Assembly: GCA_021413735.1 (NCBI GenBank)
Contig: JAIOPV010000179.1
Span: 1 to 51,270 of the forward strand
Source: Planctomycetota bacterium
GTDB taxonomy: Bacteria; Planctomycetota; Planctomycetia; Gemmatales; Gemmataceae
DNA: 51,270 nucleotides
Direction: 5' to 3'
Shown here: piece after piece, positions 35,158-46,060 of the stretch
Layout: every line of letters starts with the position of its first letter
Numbering within the stretch: the stretch's first letter is position 1
Translations under genes and position numbers: made by a program
The notes under the pieces: model-generated
What the model saw: only the letters and a program-made list of their open reading frames with translations
Databases searched by the model: none
Told to the model about the DNA's origin: nothing

Positions 35158-36543
35158 ATGGAGCACTTGCCAATGTTGGACCCGGCCGAAGACTCAACAC
35201 ACAGCAAAAAGGCTGGGCGAAAACGCAAGCCCCGGAACGGAAACAGCAAGCTGCCGGACGACGGTTCCGCGTTGTTCCTGGGTTGGGACGGCACCGAACA
35301 CGTACCCACGCTCGGGTTTAAGCCAAGTTCGGCGCAAGCCGTCACTCGTTCCCCACTCACCTACAGCGGCGACGGCCACCTGATGACCATCGCGCCAACC
35401 GGCGCGGGCAAGGGCGTCGGCGCGATTATTCCGGCGCTGCTGACGTATCCGGGTTCGATCATCGTCACCGACATCAAGGGCGAAAACTATCAGGTCACGG
35501 CTCGGTATCGTCGGGAGTTGGGTCAGCAAGTCGTGGTCCTTGACCCGTTCGGCTTGGTCACCGCGAAGGACAAAGCTGACAAACTGAATCCGTTCGACCT
35601 GTTCAAAGTGCCAGGCTCGGACGCGGAATCCGATGCCGAGATGGTCGCGGCACAGCTCGCGGTTGGTCACGAGTTCACCTCGGACCGCTACTGGGAAGAC
35701 ACCGGCCGCGGCTTGGTTTCCGGCCTGGTCGCGGACATTGCCACGAGCTACTCGCTGGAGAAACGCAATCTCTGCAGCCTGCGGGAAATGCTCTACAACG
35801 ACGACCTCGACTACACGCTCGCTGTGGCGCTCGACACACGCAAAGCGAAGATGTCGCCATTGGCTCGTGACGAGTTCGTGGCATACCTGGCCGCACCTTC
35901 AGACAAGACTCGCCCGTGTATCCGCACCACCGCGACGACGTTCGTGAAGTGCCTCGGCAGCAGTGCCGTGTCGCGGAGCCTGGAGAAATCCACCTTCGAC
36001 CTGTGCGACCTGTTGAACAACAAGCCGATGACGATCTACTTGGTGCTGCCACCGGAGAAATTGCTGAGCCACCGCGGACTGATGCGGCTGTGGGTTGTCA
36101 CGCTGATGACAACGGTGATGCGACGCACGCGACTGCCGAAGCAGCGAACATTGTTCCTCTTGGATGAAGCGGCACAGCTGGGGTCGCTCGACCTGCTGCC
36201 GCAGGCGGTGAGCCTGTTGCGGGGTTACGGCTTGCAGATGTGGACGTTCTGGCAGGATCTGAGCCAGTTGATCAAGCTGTACCCGAACAACTGGGAAGCA
36301 ATCGTGAACAACGCGGCGGTGTTGCAGGCGTTCGGCGTTCCTGGCCACGCGGCTCGCATTGGCTGGCGTGCGATGTTGGGCGATTTCGAAGCTCAAATGG
36401 CGAGCGACCTTCACACTGACGAAATGCTCGTGGCGATCACGGGTCAGCCGACGAGCCGCCATACTCGGGCGAACTACCTGAACGACCGTGCCTTCGCTGG
36501 CCGCTTCGACTCCAACCAGCGATTCCTTGGCCCGGAGATGTGA
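35158..36543 (+). CDS. Solitary TraG/VirD4-like coupling ATPase
   Basis: A 461-residue protein of the TraG/VirD4 conjugative coupling family. It has Walker A APTGAGKGVG (79-88), the TDIKGENYQVTARYRRELG segment that follows in TraG proteins, and Walker B TLFLLDEAAQLGS (DE at 336-337). The final WTFWQDLSQL segment, with its sensor-type glutamine, also fits. Classic VirD4 proteins have N-terminal membrane helices; here the N-terminus is basic and polar (KKAGRKRKPRNGNSK) with none. No relaxase, mating-pair gene or oriT is near, so a conjugation role is doubtful. It may pump or remodel DNA or protein. An ATG at 35173 is an alternative start. Confidence 0.87.
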   Translation: MEHLPMLDPAEDSTHSKKAGRKRKPRNGNSKLPDDGSALFLGWDGTEHVPTLGFKPSSAQAVTRSPLTYSGDGHLMTIAPTGAGKGVGAIIPALLTYPGSIIVTDIKGENYQVTARYRRELGQQVVVLDPFGLVTAKDKADKLNPFDLFKVPGSDAESDAEMVAAQLAVGHEFTSDRYWEDTGRGLVSGLVADIATSYSLEKRNLCSLREMLYNDDLDYTLAVALDTRKAKMSPLARDEFVAYLAAPSDKTRPCIRTTATTFVKCLGSSAVSRSLEKSTFDLCDLLNNKPMTIYLVLPPEKLLSHRGLMRLWVVTLMTTVMRRTRLPKQRTLFLLDEAAQLGSLDLLPQAVSLLRGYGLQMWTFWQDLSQLIKLYPNNWEAIVNNAAVLQAFGVPGHAARIGWRAMLGDFEAQMASDLHTDEMLVAITGQPTSRHTRANYLNDRAFAGRFDSNQRFLGPEM

Positions 36544-41630: not shown

Positions 41631-41843
41631 ATGAGCGTCGATGCACTCCTCAAGGAAGTCGAAGCATTAAGCGTCGCAGAGCGAACCGAGTTCATGACTC
41701 GGTTACGTGAACGCTTCGAGGATGCGGAAATCTCAGACGAACTGAAAGCAGAACTCGATCGCCGTGTCGCGGAAGCAGAGGCCAACCCGACGGTCGGCTA
41801 CACACTGGATGAAGTTGTCGCGTATGTAAAGCGAAAGAAATGA
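41631..41843 (+). CDS. Addiction-module antitoxin
   Basis: A 70-residue helical protein of the putative addiction module component family (TIGR02574-like). It reads MSVDALLKEVEALSVAERTE, then LKAELDRRVAEAEANP and the C-terminal TLDEVVAYVKRKK. In such pairs the antitoxin binds the toxin through its C-terminal part and may bind its own promoter. GGAGGG lies 7 bases before the ATG at 41631; a start six codons upstream is less likely. Its stop overlaps the toxin start by 4 bases (ATGA), which fits translational coupling and explains the gene order antitoxin then toxin. Confidence 0.9.
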   Translation: MSVDALLKEVEALSVAERTEFMTRLRERFEDAEISDELKAELDRRVAEAEANPTVGYTLDEVVAYVKRKK

Positions 41844-42136
41844 GCGCCTCCTACATTATCCGACCAGCGGCTCGCCAAGACATCGACGATGCTTACGACT
41901 GGTATGAGTTGCAAGCCGTTGGTCGGGGAGATTCGTTTCTCATCGAGCTGCGTCAACTGATCGATGCGATCAGCCAAGCACCCGAACTGTATGGGCGAGT
42001 TTACGGCGACTTGCGAGCCGCACCATTACCGGCTTCAAACTACATCGTTTACTACCGAATCGAAGCGACCAGCGTGTCTGTCTACGCTGTGATTCACGCC
42101 ACCGCCAACCCCCGAAAATGGCAACGACGACGGTGA
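41840..42136 (+). CDS. RelE/ParE-family toxin
   Basis: A 98-residue RelE/ParE-superfamily protein. Typical parts are YIIRPAARQDIDDAYDWYEL, the helix FLIELRQLIDAISQAPELYG, and the C-terminal strands NYIVYYRIEATSVSVYAVIH. RelE members cleave mRNA on the ribosome, and ParE members poison gyrase; the sequence alone does not decide which. The domain is complete and no disruption is seen, so the pair may be active. A perfect hairpin terminator follows 7 bases after the stop. The pair sits beside a 199-base palindrome. Confidence 0.92.
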   Translation: MSASYIIRPAARQDIDDAYDWYELQAVGRGDSFLIELRQLIDAISQAPELYGRVYGDLRAAPLPASNYIVYYRIEATSVSVYAVIHATANPRKWQRRR

Positions 42137-42214: not shown

Positions 42215-43915
42215 TCACAGTGCTTCGACGTTCTCCTTCGCGGCCCATTCGCGAAGCTGCTTCATGCCGCGAACGTTGATCTGGCGCACTCGCTCCTTCG
42301 TGATCCCAAAGTGCTGGCCAATCTGCTCCAGCGTCATCTCCTGCGAACCGTCCAGGCCAGTCCGCATCCGGATCACTTCCCGCGTTCGGGCGTCCAGGTG
42401 TTGCAACAACTTCGTCACCCGCGACTTCGCCGCGTCCGCTGTTGCCAGCACTTCCTGCTCGTCCGTTCGCACGTCGGCTTTTGCTTCAAACAACTCGTCG
42501 TGACCCGTCATGTAACGCTGCTTGTGCGTCTTCGAGTCCGGGATCGAACGAGCGAAGTTCTTCATGATCGCCCACGTCGCGTAGGTGCTGAACTTGAACC
42601 CACGGCCGTAGTCGAACTTCTCAACCGCTCGCATCAGCGACAGGTTGCCGTCGCTCACCAGGTCGTCGATGCTCTCGCCCGATGCGAGCTTCATCTTCGC
42701 CTGAGCATACACCAACCGCTGATTGCAACTGATGAGCAGATCACGACACTCCTTGATGCCTTCCTTCAGGTTCTCGACAAGAACCAGATCCTGCACGCGA
42801 GCCTTCGTCGGGTCCAGCGATTCCTGCAACTTGTGCAGTTTGTGCTTCAAGAAGTTCATCTTCCGGAACACATGCTGTTCCTGATCCTTGGAAAGCAGCG
42901 GCCATTCGTACAGGTGCATCATCTGCGGAGGCACATCCTTGGGCGCGACCTTTCCGACACGCTTCGCCTCGAATTCAGCCTTGCCGGGCATATCCGCCAG
43001 CATCTCGGCTTCCTTCTCGGGATTGTCGAAGTCCGCATTGTGGATGTAATCCACGCTCGTGCGGACGAGAACCTTGGCTCGCACTTCGTTTACCACGCGA
43101 TACATACTTGAACGGGTCCGTCCGAATTGTTTGGCGATTGTTGTCACAGTATCCTCCACGGTATCACCCGTGAGTTTGGCTTTTTCTCTGGCGTTCATTG
43201 CGATCACGATCTGCTCCTTGGCTGTGGCGGAGAGCGGACCTCCGACGGCTGGAAACAGCGCGTCGTCTGGGTGAACACGATCGAAGTTTTTGATCGTATA
43301 ACGGATCGCTTCGGGGCTACGGCCCAACTTGACCGCGACCTTCTTGCTCACTTCCGTGAGCGTCATGCCAACATCTCGCAACTCTCGTGCCTGTTGCAGA
43401 ATACCGTCTTTTTCGTCTTCGCTCAGGTGGCTAAATTTCGCGCCCTTTGCGACCAGCGCCGGATGTTCGTTCACGAACTTCTCGACGGCGATCCGTGGGA
43501 ACCCAAGCTGGCTCCGTCCATTCACTTTGACGCGGCGAGAGGTCAAACCCTTCACGCGCCATCGGGAAATTGTCTTCGTCGAAACGTTAAACCGTTTGCT
43601 CACTTCTTCGAGCGTGAGCATTGGCTCGATGGCCTGCTCAATCGGAAGCGGCGGAACGGACTTTTCGACTCGGCGTGCGAACAACTCAAGGTCGTGCTTG
43701 AGTGCTTCGCCTACAATCAACAGGTCCGGGTATGCTTCAGAACGATAATCCGTGAGGCGGAAGCAGACGTACTGATACGGGTACTGCTTACCGGACTCGA
43801 TCTCACCGAGCAATTTCAGCGCCGCGGCGACTTGAGTCTGCCGACGGGCGGGTGGGGTGAACCGAGTTTGTTGCTCGGCTAACTCTCTCAGGGCTGTTGT
43901 GTTGAATTCGCTCAC
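42215..43915 (-). CDS. Sigma-70 factor with N-terminal HTH domains
   Basis: A 566-residue sigma-70-family factor of unusual build. The N-terminal 280 residues contain three helix-turn-helix segments: a MerR-like one (LTLEEVSKRFNVSTKTISRW, about 98-150), one at about 180-212 (LTEVSKKVAVKLGRSPEAIR) and one at about 250-285. Region 1.2-like sequence lies near 340. Region 2 (about 395-460) includes FDYGRGFKFSTYATWAIMKN, and region 4 (about 498-558) ends ITKERVRQINVRGMKQLREW. In region 2 the usual TWWIRQAIT is TWAIMKNFA, so -10 recognition should differ from housekeeping sigma. No region 3 is evident. GTG start at 43915, with GGAGG five bases upstream. Confidence 0.88.
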   Translation of the reverse strand: MSEFNTTALRELAEQQTRFTPPARRQTQVAAALKLLGEIESGKQYPYQYVCFRLTDYRSEAYPDLLIVGEALKHDLELFARRVEKSVPPLPIEQAIEPMLTLEEVSKRFNVSTKTISRWRVKGLTSRRVKVNGRSQLGFPRIAVEKFVNEHPALVAKGAKFSHLSEDEKDGILQQARELRDVGMTLTEVSKKVAVKLGRSPEAIRYTIKNFDRVHPDDALFPAVGGPLSATAKEQIVIAMNAREKAKLTGDTVEDTVTTIAKQFGRTRSSMYRVVNEVRAKVLVRTSVDYIHNADFDNPEKEAEMLADMPGKAEFEAKRVGKVAPKDVPPQMMHLYEWPLLSKDQEQHVFRKMNFLKHKLHKLQESLDPTKARVQDLVLVENLKEGIKECRDLLISCNQRLVYAQAKMKLASGESIDDLVSDGNLSLMRAVEKFDYGRGFKFSTYATWAIMKNFARSIPDSKTHKQRYMTGHDELFEAKADVRTDEQEVLATADAAKSRVTKLLQHLDARTREVIRMRTGLDGSQEMTLEQIGQHFGITKERVRQINVRGMKQLREWAAKENVEAL

Positions 43916-44710
43916 CGGCTCCTCCCGGCCACGGACTTACGTCCTTAAACTGGCATTTTTGTTCGTTCGTCGGGAAAGTCATCCCGGCGTGGTATTGTGG
44001 TGTTCTCGCTGGCCTCTCGGTTATTCGCTCGAGCTCGCTTCAGGTTTCGCTACCGGAGATACTCCCTCGTGGGGCTTTTCTTTCCCAAACTCTCCAAATC
44101 TCGCCTTTGTGACTCAATTCGCTCTTGCATGTCACACGAGAGTTGGATACATCTCCCCGGCCTTCGGGTTCGCTTATTCGGCAAACCCAGAAGATTAATC
44201 TGAATCCGACGCATTCAACGGACACTTCCGCTGCCTGTTCTCGGAGTCGGGTTGCGGGACGGTCTGCTGCGAGTTATCGTGCGATCCGCGAGGTCGAGAG
44301 AGTCCTTTGCACTTCACTTGCCAATCCAAATTCGTGACCGACTCCCACCGAAAAATCTGGCCCGTTCTACTGCCGTGACATGATGTTGCGACGAGTTTAA
44401 TTTTCCGGATTTCCGCTCGTCAGACATTTTCGTAGCGTGCGTTGGCCGCTGGAGGTGGTCGCTTTTACACGTCTACTGTGCTTTGTTGCAATCGCTCCGT
44501 TCAATCTTCGGACGCCCTTGATTTATCCGCAAACTCATCGCCTCTTAACTATTCCACACAAGTTCTGAGATTCCTGTCGAGATTTGCATTTCGATGTCAG
44601 TTTGTCGCCGGAATCGCCGGCACCCGCGCTACAATTGCGGAAGTTTGTGGCTCGGTCTGAATGTGTTGGTATTGCGAAGCCGCAAGGGGCCAAGAACCGC
44701 GGAGTCCTTC
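43916..44710. other. Long intergenic region, no gene
   Basis: About 795 bases separate the divergent sigma factor and secreted-protein genes, the longest gap in the window. The sequence is clearly AT-richer than its surroundings and breaks all six frames into short pieces with no known domain. It probably holds promoters and long 5' leaders, perhaps a small RNA; none could be defined by eye. Confidence 0.6.
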
Positions 44711-46060
44711 ATGCGTGCAACCGCCTTCTTTCGCCGAATTCTCGTTTCGCTCACGGTCCTTGGGTTGGTTGCCGGGCTTGCACATGCTCAGGAAGCGGTC
44801 ACGCTTCAGGAGAAGTTCGAGCCTGGGCACACTTCAAAAGTCGATGTCGTCGTGAAACTGACGGGCAAATTGTCGGTGCCGCTCCAGAAGGGAAAGGCAC
44901 CCGAGCTGGTCACGATTGCGGGCGTTAGTCGCGTTACATATGAGGAGCGGGTTCTGGTTCCCGACGACGTGGGGACGTTGAAAGCTGTGCGGGCGTACCG
45001 TGATGTGCAGTTTGAACGCACAGTGGGCGATAACACACAGGACGCGGGAATCAGGCCGTCGGTTCGCAGAATGGTCGTAATTAAATCGGAAAATCGGCGG
45101 GCACCGTTCTCACCCGACGGTCCGCTGACCTGGGGCGAGATTGATGTTGTGCGAACCGACGTGTTCAATCCGGCCGTGATTCCGGGCATTCTTCCAAGCG
45201 GCCCCGTCAAGAAAGGCCAGACCTGGAAGGTGTCGGCTGCGGCCGTCGCGGAACTGACCGACATGGAGAAGATCGAAGAGGGCGACATCACGGTTGAACT
45301 CGTCGGCGTCACGGAAATCGGCAAGCAGAAGATGGCCAAACTGCGGGTGTCGGGTTCAGTTCGCGGAGTGAATCAGGATGGCCCGAGCCGTCAGCGACTC
45401 GAAGGCAGCGCGTACTTCGATCTCGACGCGAACCTGCTGACGTATCTTTCGCTGAAGGGAACGCACGAACTCCTCGACGGCACCGGTCAGGCTGTGGGTC
45501 GCATCGAGGGGCAGTTCACGATGACGCGGTCGCGGCTGGACAAGATGCCACCGGATCTGTCGGATGCGTCCTTGCGTGGGCTCGAATTGCGACCGACGTT
45601 CGAGAACACTCTTCTTCTGTACGACGACACTCGCCTCGGGGTTCGCTTCCTGTATCCGCGGGGCTGGCGTGTCGGTGCGGTGCAGGGCAAGCAAGTGACG
45701 CTCGATCACGCTCGCGGGTCGGGCGTCCTCATCACGGTGGAGCCCGACACGAAGGTTCCCACAGCGGAAGACTACGCGAAGGAAATCACGGCGTTCCTCC
45801 AGAAGCAGAAGGCGACGATCACGACAACCGAGAAAGCAACGCGAGTGCGAGCGGAGCCTGTGCAACTCGACCGCTTCGCGTTCGAGGCAACGTTTGGCAC
45901 GGACAAGGTGCGATTGGAGTATGCCGTGCTGAAGCAGACCGACGGCGGCGTGACGGTAGCTGGTCGCATTCCGGCTGCCGACATCGCGGCGATGAAGCCC
46001 GAAGTGGAACGAGTGATCCGCAGCCTGTCGGTGACGAAGAAGATCGAAGAGATGAAGTGA
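44711..46060 (+). CDS. Secreted protein of unknown function
   Basis: A 449-residue protein with a signal peptide (RILVSLTVLGLVAGLAHAQE). The mature part is beta-rich with repeated short strands; it holds PSVRRMVVIKSENRRAPFSP, SGPVKKGQTWKVSAAAVAEL and a C-terminal half from LLLYDDTRLGVRFLYPRGWR. The latter resembles the start of a PsbP/MOG1-like fold. It ends in helix VERVIRSLSVTKKIEEMK. No enzyme motif was recognised. GGAG lies seven bases before the ATG at 44711. It ends at a cruciform palindrome and converges with the dehydrogenase gene. Confidence 0.75.
   Translation: MRATAFFRRILVSLTVLGLVAGLAHAQEAVTLQEKFEPGHTSKVDVVVKLTGKLSVPLQKGKAPELVTIAGVSRVTYEERVLVPDDVGTLKAVRAYRDVQFERTVGDNTQDAGIRPSVRRMVVIKSENRRAPFSPDGPLTWGEIDVVRTDVFNPAVIPGILPSGPVKKGQTWKVSAAAVAELTDMEKIEEGDITVELVGVTEIGKQKMAKLRVSGSVRGVNQDGPSRQRLEGSAYFDLDANLLTYLSLKGTHELLDGTGQAVGRIEGQFTMTRSRLDKMPPDLSDASLRGLELRPTFENTLLLYDDTRLGVRFLYPRGWRVGAVQGKQVTLDHARGSGVLITVEPDTKVPTAEDYAKEITAFLQKQKATITTTEKATRVRAEPVQLDRFAFEATFGTDKVRLEYAVLKQTDGGVTVAGRIPAADIAAMKPEVERVIRSLSVTKKIEEMK

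Follow-up and report, generated by a model that had tools for sequence, protein, structure and literature searches.

A candidate alternative sigma factor with a built-in helix-turn-helix module, near-universal in a class of planctomycetes

Introduction

What is a sigma factor doing with three helix-turn-helix (HTH) domains of its own? The question is raised by a gene in a 51,270-nucleotide stretch of DNA from a Planctomycetota bacterium of the Gemmataceae (GCA_021413735.1, contig JAIOPV010000179.1, positions 1 to 51,270; hereafter the window). The cell plan of planctomycetes is unusual, and little is known of the regulators that act globally in them. An earlier note, made from the letters alone, had proposed that the product, here called the HTH-sigma protein, combines a sigma factor carrying an altered region 2 with a DNA-binding regulator, and that half of its length is HTH sequence foreign to ordinary sigma-70 factors. 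The following sections consider the predicted domains, their distribution and evolution, the DNA upstream of the gene, and the alternative explanations that such a layout invites.

Architecture of the protein

The gene (window 42215..43915 in the ORF list, reverse strand, as are all features below unless marked as forward) opens on a GTG codon and encodes 566 residues; all 18 same-genus loci inspected have a strong Shine-Dalgarno sequence ahead of the start codon. Residues 1-296 were modelled with AlphaFold2 at a pLDDT of 88.6, giving a helical domain with two short strands (domain 1, residues 1-90, 43646..43915, delimited by the models and by forms in which it alone precedes a sigma core) and three HTH units at about residues 97-150 (43466..43627), 160-214 (43274..43438) and 228-285 (43061..43234). 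Together with domain 1 these units take up about 300 of the 566 residues. Several N-terminal HTH units are predicted, as had been postulated, and Pfam matches near residues 99-150 and 255-281 agree with the models, as do matches to BldC.

The first unit is a winged HTH by both fold and sequence profile (Pfam HTH_23 and MerR_1), resembling BldC and MerR. Its sequence matches Streptomyces BldC (6ama, E 7e-4; 6amk, E 1e-3), and chain 6ama_B was recovered by Foldseek (probability 0.99, E 0.11, TM 0.66 by target length) and by a separate structure comparison (Z 6.4). The second unit is drawn from the models, with a middling structure match (Z 7.7). The third is recognised by Pfam (HTH_7/HTH_29), by the models and by a match to 2lvs, an uncharacterised HTH protein (E 1.2e-4), with weak matches to the Sleeping Beauty transposase (0.013) and gamma-delta resolvase (0.21). 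For the HTH half as a whole, Foldseek returned no match at E 0.001 or better and structure Z values stayed below 8 (up to 7.7); cyclin D and spliceosome chains among the structure matches were set aside as chance helical matches.

The C-terminal half comprises three recognisable parts: a region 1.2-like stretch (residues 329-360, 42836..42931), sigma domain 2 (residues 391-461, 42533..42745) and sigma domain 4 (residues 500-556, 42248..42418). Both sigma domains exceed their Pfam cut-offs (Sigma70_r2 at 394-453, E 4.6e-15; Sigma70_r4 at 503-556, E 1.7e-20), and they do so in 17/17 aligned relatives, all of which also match HTH_23 and MerR_1. The region 1.2-like stretch corresponds to model helices at 330-336 and 343-366 and to the point near residues 325-332 where phmmer alignments to SigA begin; under MAFFT it aligns poorly with five RpoD-like proteins. 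Among solved structures the protein comes nearest to chains of RpoD, with matches over about 352-461 and 486-559. Together with the placement in a sigma-70 tree described below, these matches point to a genuine sigma core, in keeping with the identity first assigned. The whole-protein model, built from 17 sequences, reached a mean pLDDT of 83.8 with a pTM of 0.47, so that the domains are predicted individually and their relative placing is not.

A sigma core with an altered reading head and no sigma-3

In an alignment with five RpoD-like proteins, of which the same genome supplies two, the HTH-sigma family lacks the sigma-3 stretch, from the end of region 2.4 to the acidic finger-like segment before domain 4. 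In its place stands a short linker that keeps the finger-like segment (residues 462-485, 42461..42532), and pLDDT falls below 50 over residues 458-484. Sigma70_r3 is absent from the Pfam families listed, up to 25 each, for the protein and its 17 relatives, and the sole short paralog in the RpoD-like alignment likewise skips the stretch.

Within domain 2, the segment associated with promoter melting and the -12 position reads TWAIMKNFA (residues 447-455, 42551..42577), as had been pointed out; the two RpoD-like proteins of the same genome have TWWIRQAIT and TWWVRQGIT there. All 33 fused sequences fit W-A-I-x-[KR]-N-x-A-R and 21 of them, counted by eye, are exactly [ST]WAIMKNFAR, so in these alignments the altered region 2.3-2.4 is a trait of the family. 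In E. coli numbering (E. coli 446 being residue 461 here) the changes are W434 to A, R436 to M, Q437 to K, A438 to N, I439 to F and T440 to A, among them the two residues, Q437 and T440, that we take to read -12. F419, R423, K426, T429, Y430 and W433 are retained in columns that are invariant or nearly so, with E420 as D, and the retained six are presumably those that form the pocket for the flipped -11A. More broadly, the positions of the sigma part that we assume to contact core polymerase or to line this pocket are largely invariant among the relatives. The proposal that residues reading the -10 element have been lost therefore stands in part: W434, R436, Q437 and T440 are changed, but the residues aligned with the -11A pocket are kept, and the alignments suggest an altered reading head, with loss of -10 reading as such going beyond the evidence.

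Distribution and phylogeny

A survey of homologues, which had been suggested as a check, found the family almost everywhere in one class and the HTH module in some genomes of other classes of the phylum. At a threshold of E 1e-90 or better, a family match was found in 292/297 class genomes of at least 90% completeness, in 285 of the 289 cleanest and in 154/157 genera; we infer the class to be Planctomycetia. The five genomes with no match are all drafts, in 320 to 1420 contigs. As we read the tabulated results, two to four matches occur in nine of the 292 and a single one in each of the rest. Among near relatives the ortholog is full length in 39/41; one of the remainder holds a piece only, and the other, a 75% complete draft, has none. 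Being near-universal, the gene is probably a core, and unstudied, gene switch of the class.

With the HTH half as query, 52/294 genomes of the phylum carry the module, exactly once each: 21 in the window's class and 31 in other classes. Named loci led to another 37 genomes, among which the module was found in 10/10 planctomycetes (in one as two pieces on two contigs) and in none of the 27 genomes from other phyla. A scan of named genomes with sigma-part peptides as the only queries, of which the best 80 matches were kept, gave 17 loci that match beyond the sigma part, all recorded as planctomycetes or simply as 'bacterium'. A phage origin was rejected: of 46 viral stretches with a peptide pattern, 3 match the module, each over part of it. 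Matches were found in 251 plasmid records, in no case across 80% of the query; in the 25 that were listed they lie in the sigma part.

In a maximum-likelihood tree of 98 sigma cores, midpoint-rooted and including 26 other sigma factors (four from the window's genome), the fused, short and domain-1-only forms make one clade with support of 100/100. Within it the 33 fused class sequences group at 98/92; kinship assigns 17 of them to the class and similarity the other 16, which are named records. The position of the short forms inside the clade is tentative. The short forms are paralogs without HTHs, with 302-483 open codons and one or two per genome, occurring in many planctomycetes; in those from other classes the counterpart of W448 is replaced (FSTYACRAILK). 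The domain-1-only forms, found in two genomes of the phylum set, carry residues 1-85 ahead of a sigma core with no HTHs between.

Evolution of the two halves

Outside the class the two halves have had separate histories. The 31 carriers there comprise 15 fusions with recognisable sigma-2 and sigma-4 (one of them borderline), 12 in which the sigma part has decayed, 2 domain-1-only forms and 2 cut fragments. The 10 named carriers divide equally: in 5, of which two are Phycisphaerae, the sigma part is intact, and in the other 5 it has decayed; one of the decayed is recorded as 'Planctomycetia bacterium', so either that title or a strict rule that the sigma part is intact in the class must be wrong.

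Identity to the class consensus was compared between 17 decayed members, mostly from outside the class, and 17 intact members from outside it. Across domain 1 and the three HTHs the decayed members score 0.30, 0.36, 0.34 and 0.26, close to the 0.34, 0.43, 0.31 and 0.29 of the intact ones, the winged HTH being somewhat lower in decayed members. From intact to decayed, identity drops from 0.40 to 0.24 in region 1.2, from 0.55 to 0.21 in sigma-2 and from 0.50 to 0.17 in sigma-4. HTH motifs (such as R-W/Y-R-x-x-G-L) are retained in the decayed members, whose reading frames hold 461 to 639 open codons, and 897 in one case, so they do not look like dead genes. Since HTHs persist on a decayed sigma part in 17 relatives, the module would appear, on this pattern of conservation, to have a function separate from that of the sigma half, which favours the regulator role suggested for it at the outset. 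Short HTH-less paralogs, one or two per genome, occur in 11 of the 12 genomes of the phylum set whose fusion has a decayed sigma part, and the FSTY motif of sigma-2 is present in every short paralog inspected (nine genomes). Such paralogs also accompany intact fusions within the class, and their presence alone is therefore no proof of replacement.

This history lends itself to two other explanations of the whole protein. The first is that it is mainly a DNA-binding transcription factor whose sigma-like part docks on RNA polymerase and never opens a promoter; the decay of the sigma part where HTHs persist makes a non-sigma life of the chain possible. Set against this, domain 2 (0.78 identity to consensus) and region 1.2 are its most conserved parts within the window's class, the FSTYA..W core of domain 2 is invariant in alignments of relatives, and domain 4 is found in all 17 of the aligned relatives, so that we regard this explanation as unlikely. 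A comparably small chance attaches to the second, that the N-terminal half serves as a cap for autoinhibition or sensing, with an effect like that of sigma-1.1, and that its HTH folds do not read DNA. The half does lie where RpoD has sigma-1.1, ahead of region 1.2, and in two genomes domain 1 alone is fused to the sigma core; the decayed members, however, have kept the HTH motif with no sigma activity left to inhibit.

Upstream region and neighbourhood

Promoters recognised by sigma-54 have a -24/-12 consensus in which GG and GC lie 12 apart. Such an element, TGGCAAGTGAAGTGCA, with this GG-to-GC spacing, lies 408 nt before the start codon (44308..44323), and a similar one lies 336-446 nt ahead of the start in 18/18 same-genus loci. 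Across 87 distinct upstream regions a weighted score of at least 19 was reached in 51 in the sense orientation, in 7 in the antisense orientation and in 9.7% of shuffles, and a score of at least 20 in 37, 0 and 2.4%, respectively. Because the motif was noticed in the genus before the score was defined, and because the 87 regions are not independent but related, the antisense orientation offers the fairer control. Below 19 lie 36/87 regions; outside the genus, 34/69 reach at least 19 and 22/69 at least 20, and three loci of the set (L030, L037, L040) carry full-score elements. The window's genome encodes a single sigma-54 with its DNA-binding domain. Judged by this enrichment, the gene is probably under sigma-54. 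An activator palindrome, TGTC..GACA, occurs at a fitting distance in 5/18 loci only and is not claimed.

Between the element and the start codon (44015..44175) short conserved words form an array whose spacing, roughly 21-22 bp, is nearly constant: GAACC to TATC is 21-22 bp, TATC to CAAG is 22 bp in 17/18 loci, AAACC to CGAAT is 20 bp in 14/18 and 19-21 in three, and CAAG to GTAAG varies from 24 to 45. The words recur in a second genus, at three loci (L174, L175, L181). A three-word pattern of the array is present in 18/19 genomes of the genus, in 17 of them upstream of the HTH-sigma gene. Elsewhere in those genomes it gives six matches against five for a reversed control pattern; no regulon emerges, and use of the array as an operator at other sites was rejected, the other matches being at chance level. 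With its spacing of about two turns of the helix, the array resembles a set of protein sites; that the HTH module itself might bind there is a guess.

A structured RNA leader was also considered for these blocks and rejected. They have no Rfam match up to E 10, and the block region, folded as a consensus, did not outperform column-shuffled alignments (z from -0.25 to +2.05 in windows starting at -480 to -240). The windows at -600 and -540 (z -2.15 and -22.93) were not used because their energies are -1.8 and -0.6 with almost no spread among shuffles. The last two windows before the start, spanning the final 120 nt or so, fold well (z -3.42 and -6.12). Hairpins lie directly before the Shine-Dalgarno sequence (43919..43990) and their stems differ from genome to genome by two-sided changes (GGAC/GTCC versus GGGC/GCCC). 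We read the blocks as DNA sites and only the last hairpins as RNA, with a possible role in translation control.

The divergent neighbour (44594..46060, forward strand) has no Pfam match; its N-terminus suggests a probably exported product, and 11/21 loci compared have a homologue close to the sigma gene. Two further genes of the window were recorded, both on the forward strand: a ParE-type toxin gene of a toxin-antitoxin system at 41840..42136 (Pfam, E 3e-10) and a gene for a conjugative coupling protein at 35158..36543 (T4SS-DNA_transf, Pfam, E 1e-51).

Proposed function

Our preferred reading, to which we give a probability of roughly 0.6, is that the HTH-sigma protein is a sigma-54-driven alternative sigma factor with a DNA-binding module built in before region 1.2, and a core component of the class. 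Its mechanism might run as follows. A sigma-54 promoter, and hence an activator and its signal, would switch the gene on; the sigma part would use domains 2 and 4 to dock on core polymerase, would open promoters by the usual flipping of the -11 base, and would read the -12 position and the -35 box with a specificity of its own. Because sigma-3 is missing, such a factor would be unable to use an extended -10. The HTHs may replace the missing grip by binding specific DNA near target promoters, which would put sigma factor and operator recognition in one chain. The module may also act as a regulator in its own right, as its persistence on decayed sigma parts suggests.

We hold more tentatively, and a little short of even odds, a wider evolutionary interpretation: that this is a further sigma-70 architecture, core to the class, whose own operator module occupies the place of sigma-1.1 and offsets the lost sigma-3, with promoters chosen jointly by the -10/-35 elements and an operator; and that in other planctomycete lineages the ancestral fusion split, the sigma half decaying to leave a pure regulator and the HTH-less paralogs keeping the sigma role. 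That the protein might be an ordinary RpoD-like or stress sigma factor with an unimportant N-terminal extension we consider very improbable: RpoD-type profiles do match domains 2 and 4, and alternative sigma factors vary at the positions altered in region 2, but all of the 25 NCBIfam models listed except the superfamily model TIGR02937 fall far below their cut-offs, sigma-3 is missing, the clade is separate and the extension is single-copy across the phylum's carriers.

The loss of sigma-3, the class-wide conservation and the sigma-54-type element extend what the earlier note had seen. The matches in 292/297 class genomes and the probable sigma-54 drive make the gene a prime candidate for a global regulator. 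Moreover, with intact fusions, decayed fusions, domain-1-only forms and HTH-less paralogs in one series, the change from sigma factor to plain transcription factor becomes directly testable.

Comparison with known systems

The planctomycete, sigma-factor and HTH literature that we searched, limited in coverage and including the available text of PMC10632474 and PMC9523054, holds no description of the family. A lead comes from Rhodopirellula baltica, whose RB12251, a 567-residue 'RNA polymerase specialized sigma factor', is tabulated among the genes repressed by heat, cold and salt, and is named beside rpoN as salt-repressed (PMC2754498); its length fits membership of the family.

By E-value the best NCBIfam profile is that of MzaA, from the MZA anti-phage system (7.5e-45, over the sigma part and residues 299-461), and PADLOC also returns MzaA (E 4.2e-32). 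The NF041931 score, however, is 154 bits against a cut-off of 800, and the match of the first stretch ends at profile position 547/726; on that score, membership and a defence role were rejected.

With the BldC family, which includes a developmental regulator of Streptomyces, the protein shares a winged HTH in sequence and fold. BldC is described as a lone protein of 68 residues that multimerises on 9-bp direct repeats (PMC5859096), whereas here the winged HTH shares its chain with a sigma factor and several other domains. Nor do the blocks upstream of the gene, at a spacing of about 21-22 bp, fit such repeats. Sigma factors with an extra domain in the same chain are also known among the ECFs: there the extra part is a C-terminal extension in ECF41 (PMC4598750) and WD40 repeats in planctomycete ECFs (PMC8567305). 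In the HTH-sigma protein, by contrast, the models make it a predicted DNA-binding module, and fusion of a sigma factor to such domains is a further reason for interest.

Among sigma factors proper, those of groups 1 and 2 (RpoD, RpoS, actinobacterial SigB) have in common with this protein the region 1.2-like stretch, the FSTYATW domain 2 and domain 4. They differ from it in having sigma-1.1 and sigma-3 and TWWIRQAIT for TWAIMKNFA, while half of the HTH-sigma protein is HTH module, its clade is separate, and its score against the RpoD profile TIGR02393 is 130.8 bits, under the cut-off of 354. The sigma-3 domain that marks groups 1, 2 and most of group 3 is absent from it, as it is from group 4 (ECF), with which it shares sigma-2 and sigma-4 joined by a linker that holds no sigma-3. 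ECF factors are said to lack the first helix of region 1.2 (PMC4598750), whereas the HTH-sigma model predicts helices in the region 1.2-like stretch, poorly as MAFFT aligns it with RpoD-like proteins, and the closest profiles are RpoD-type. With a region 1.2-like stretch as in groups 1 and 2 and no sigma-3 as in group 4, the predicted architecture places the HTH-sigma protein outside a clean fit to the four textbook groups.
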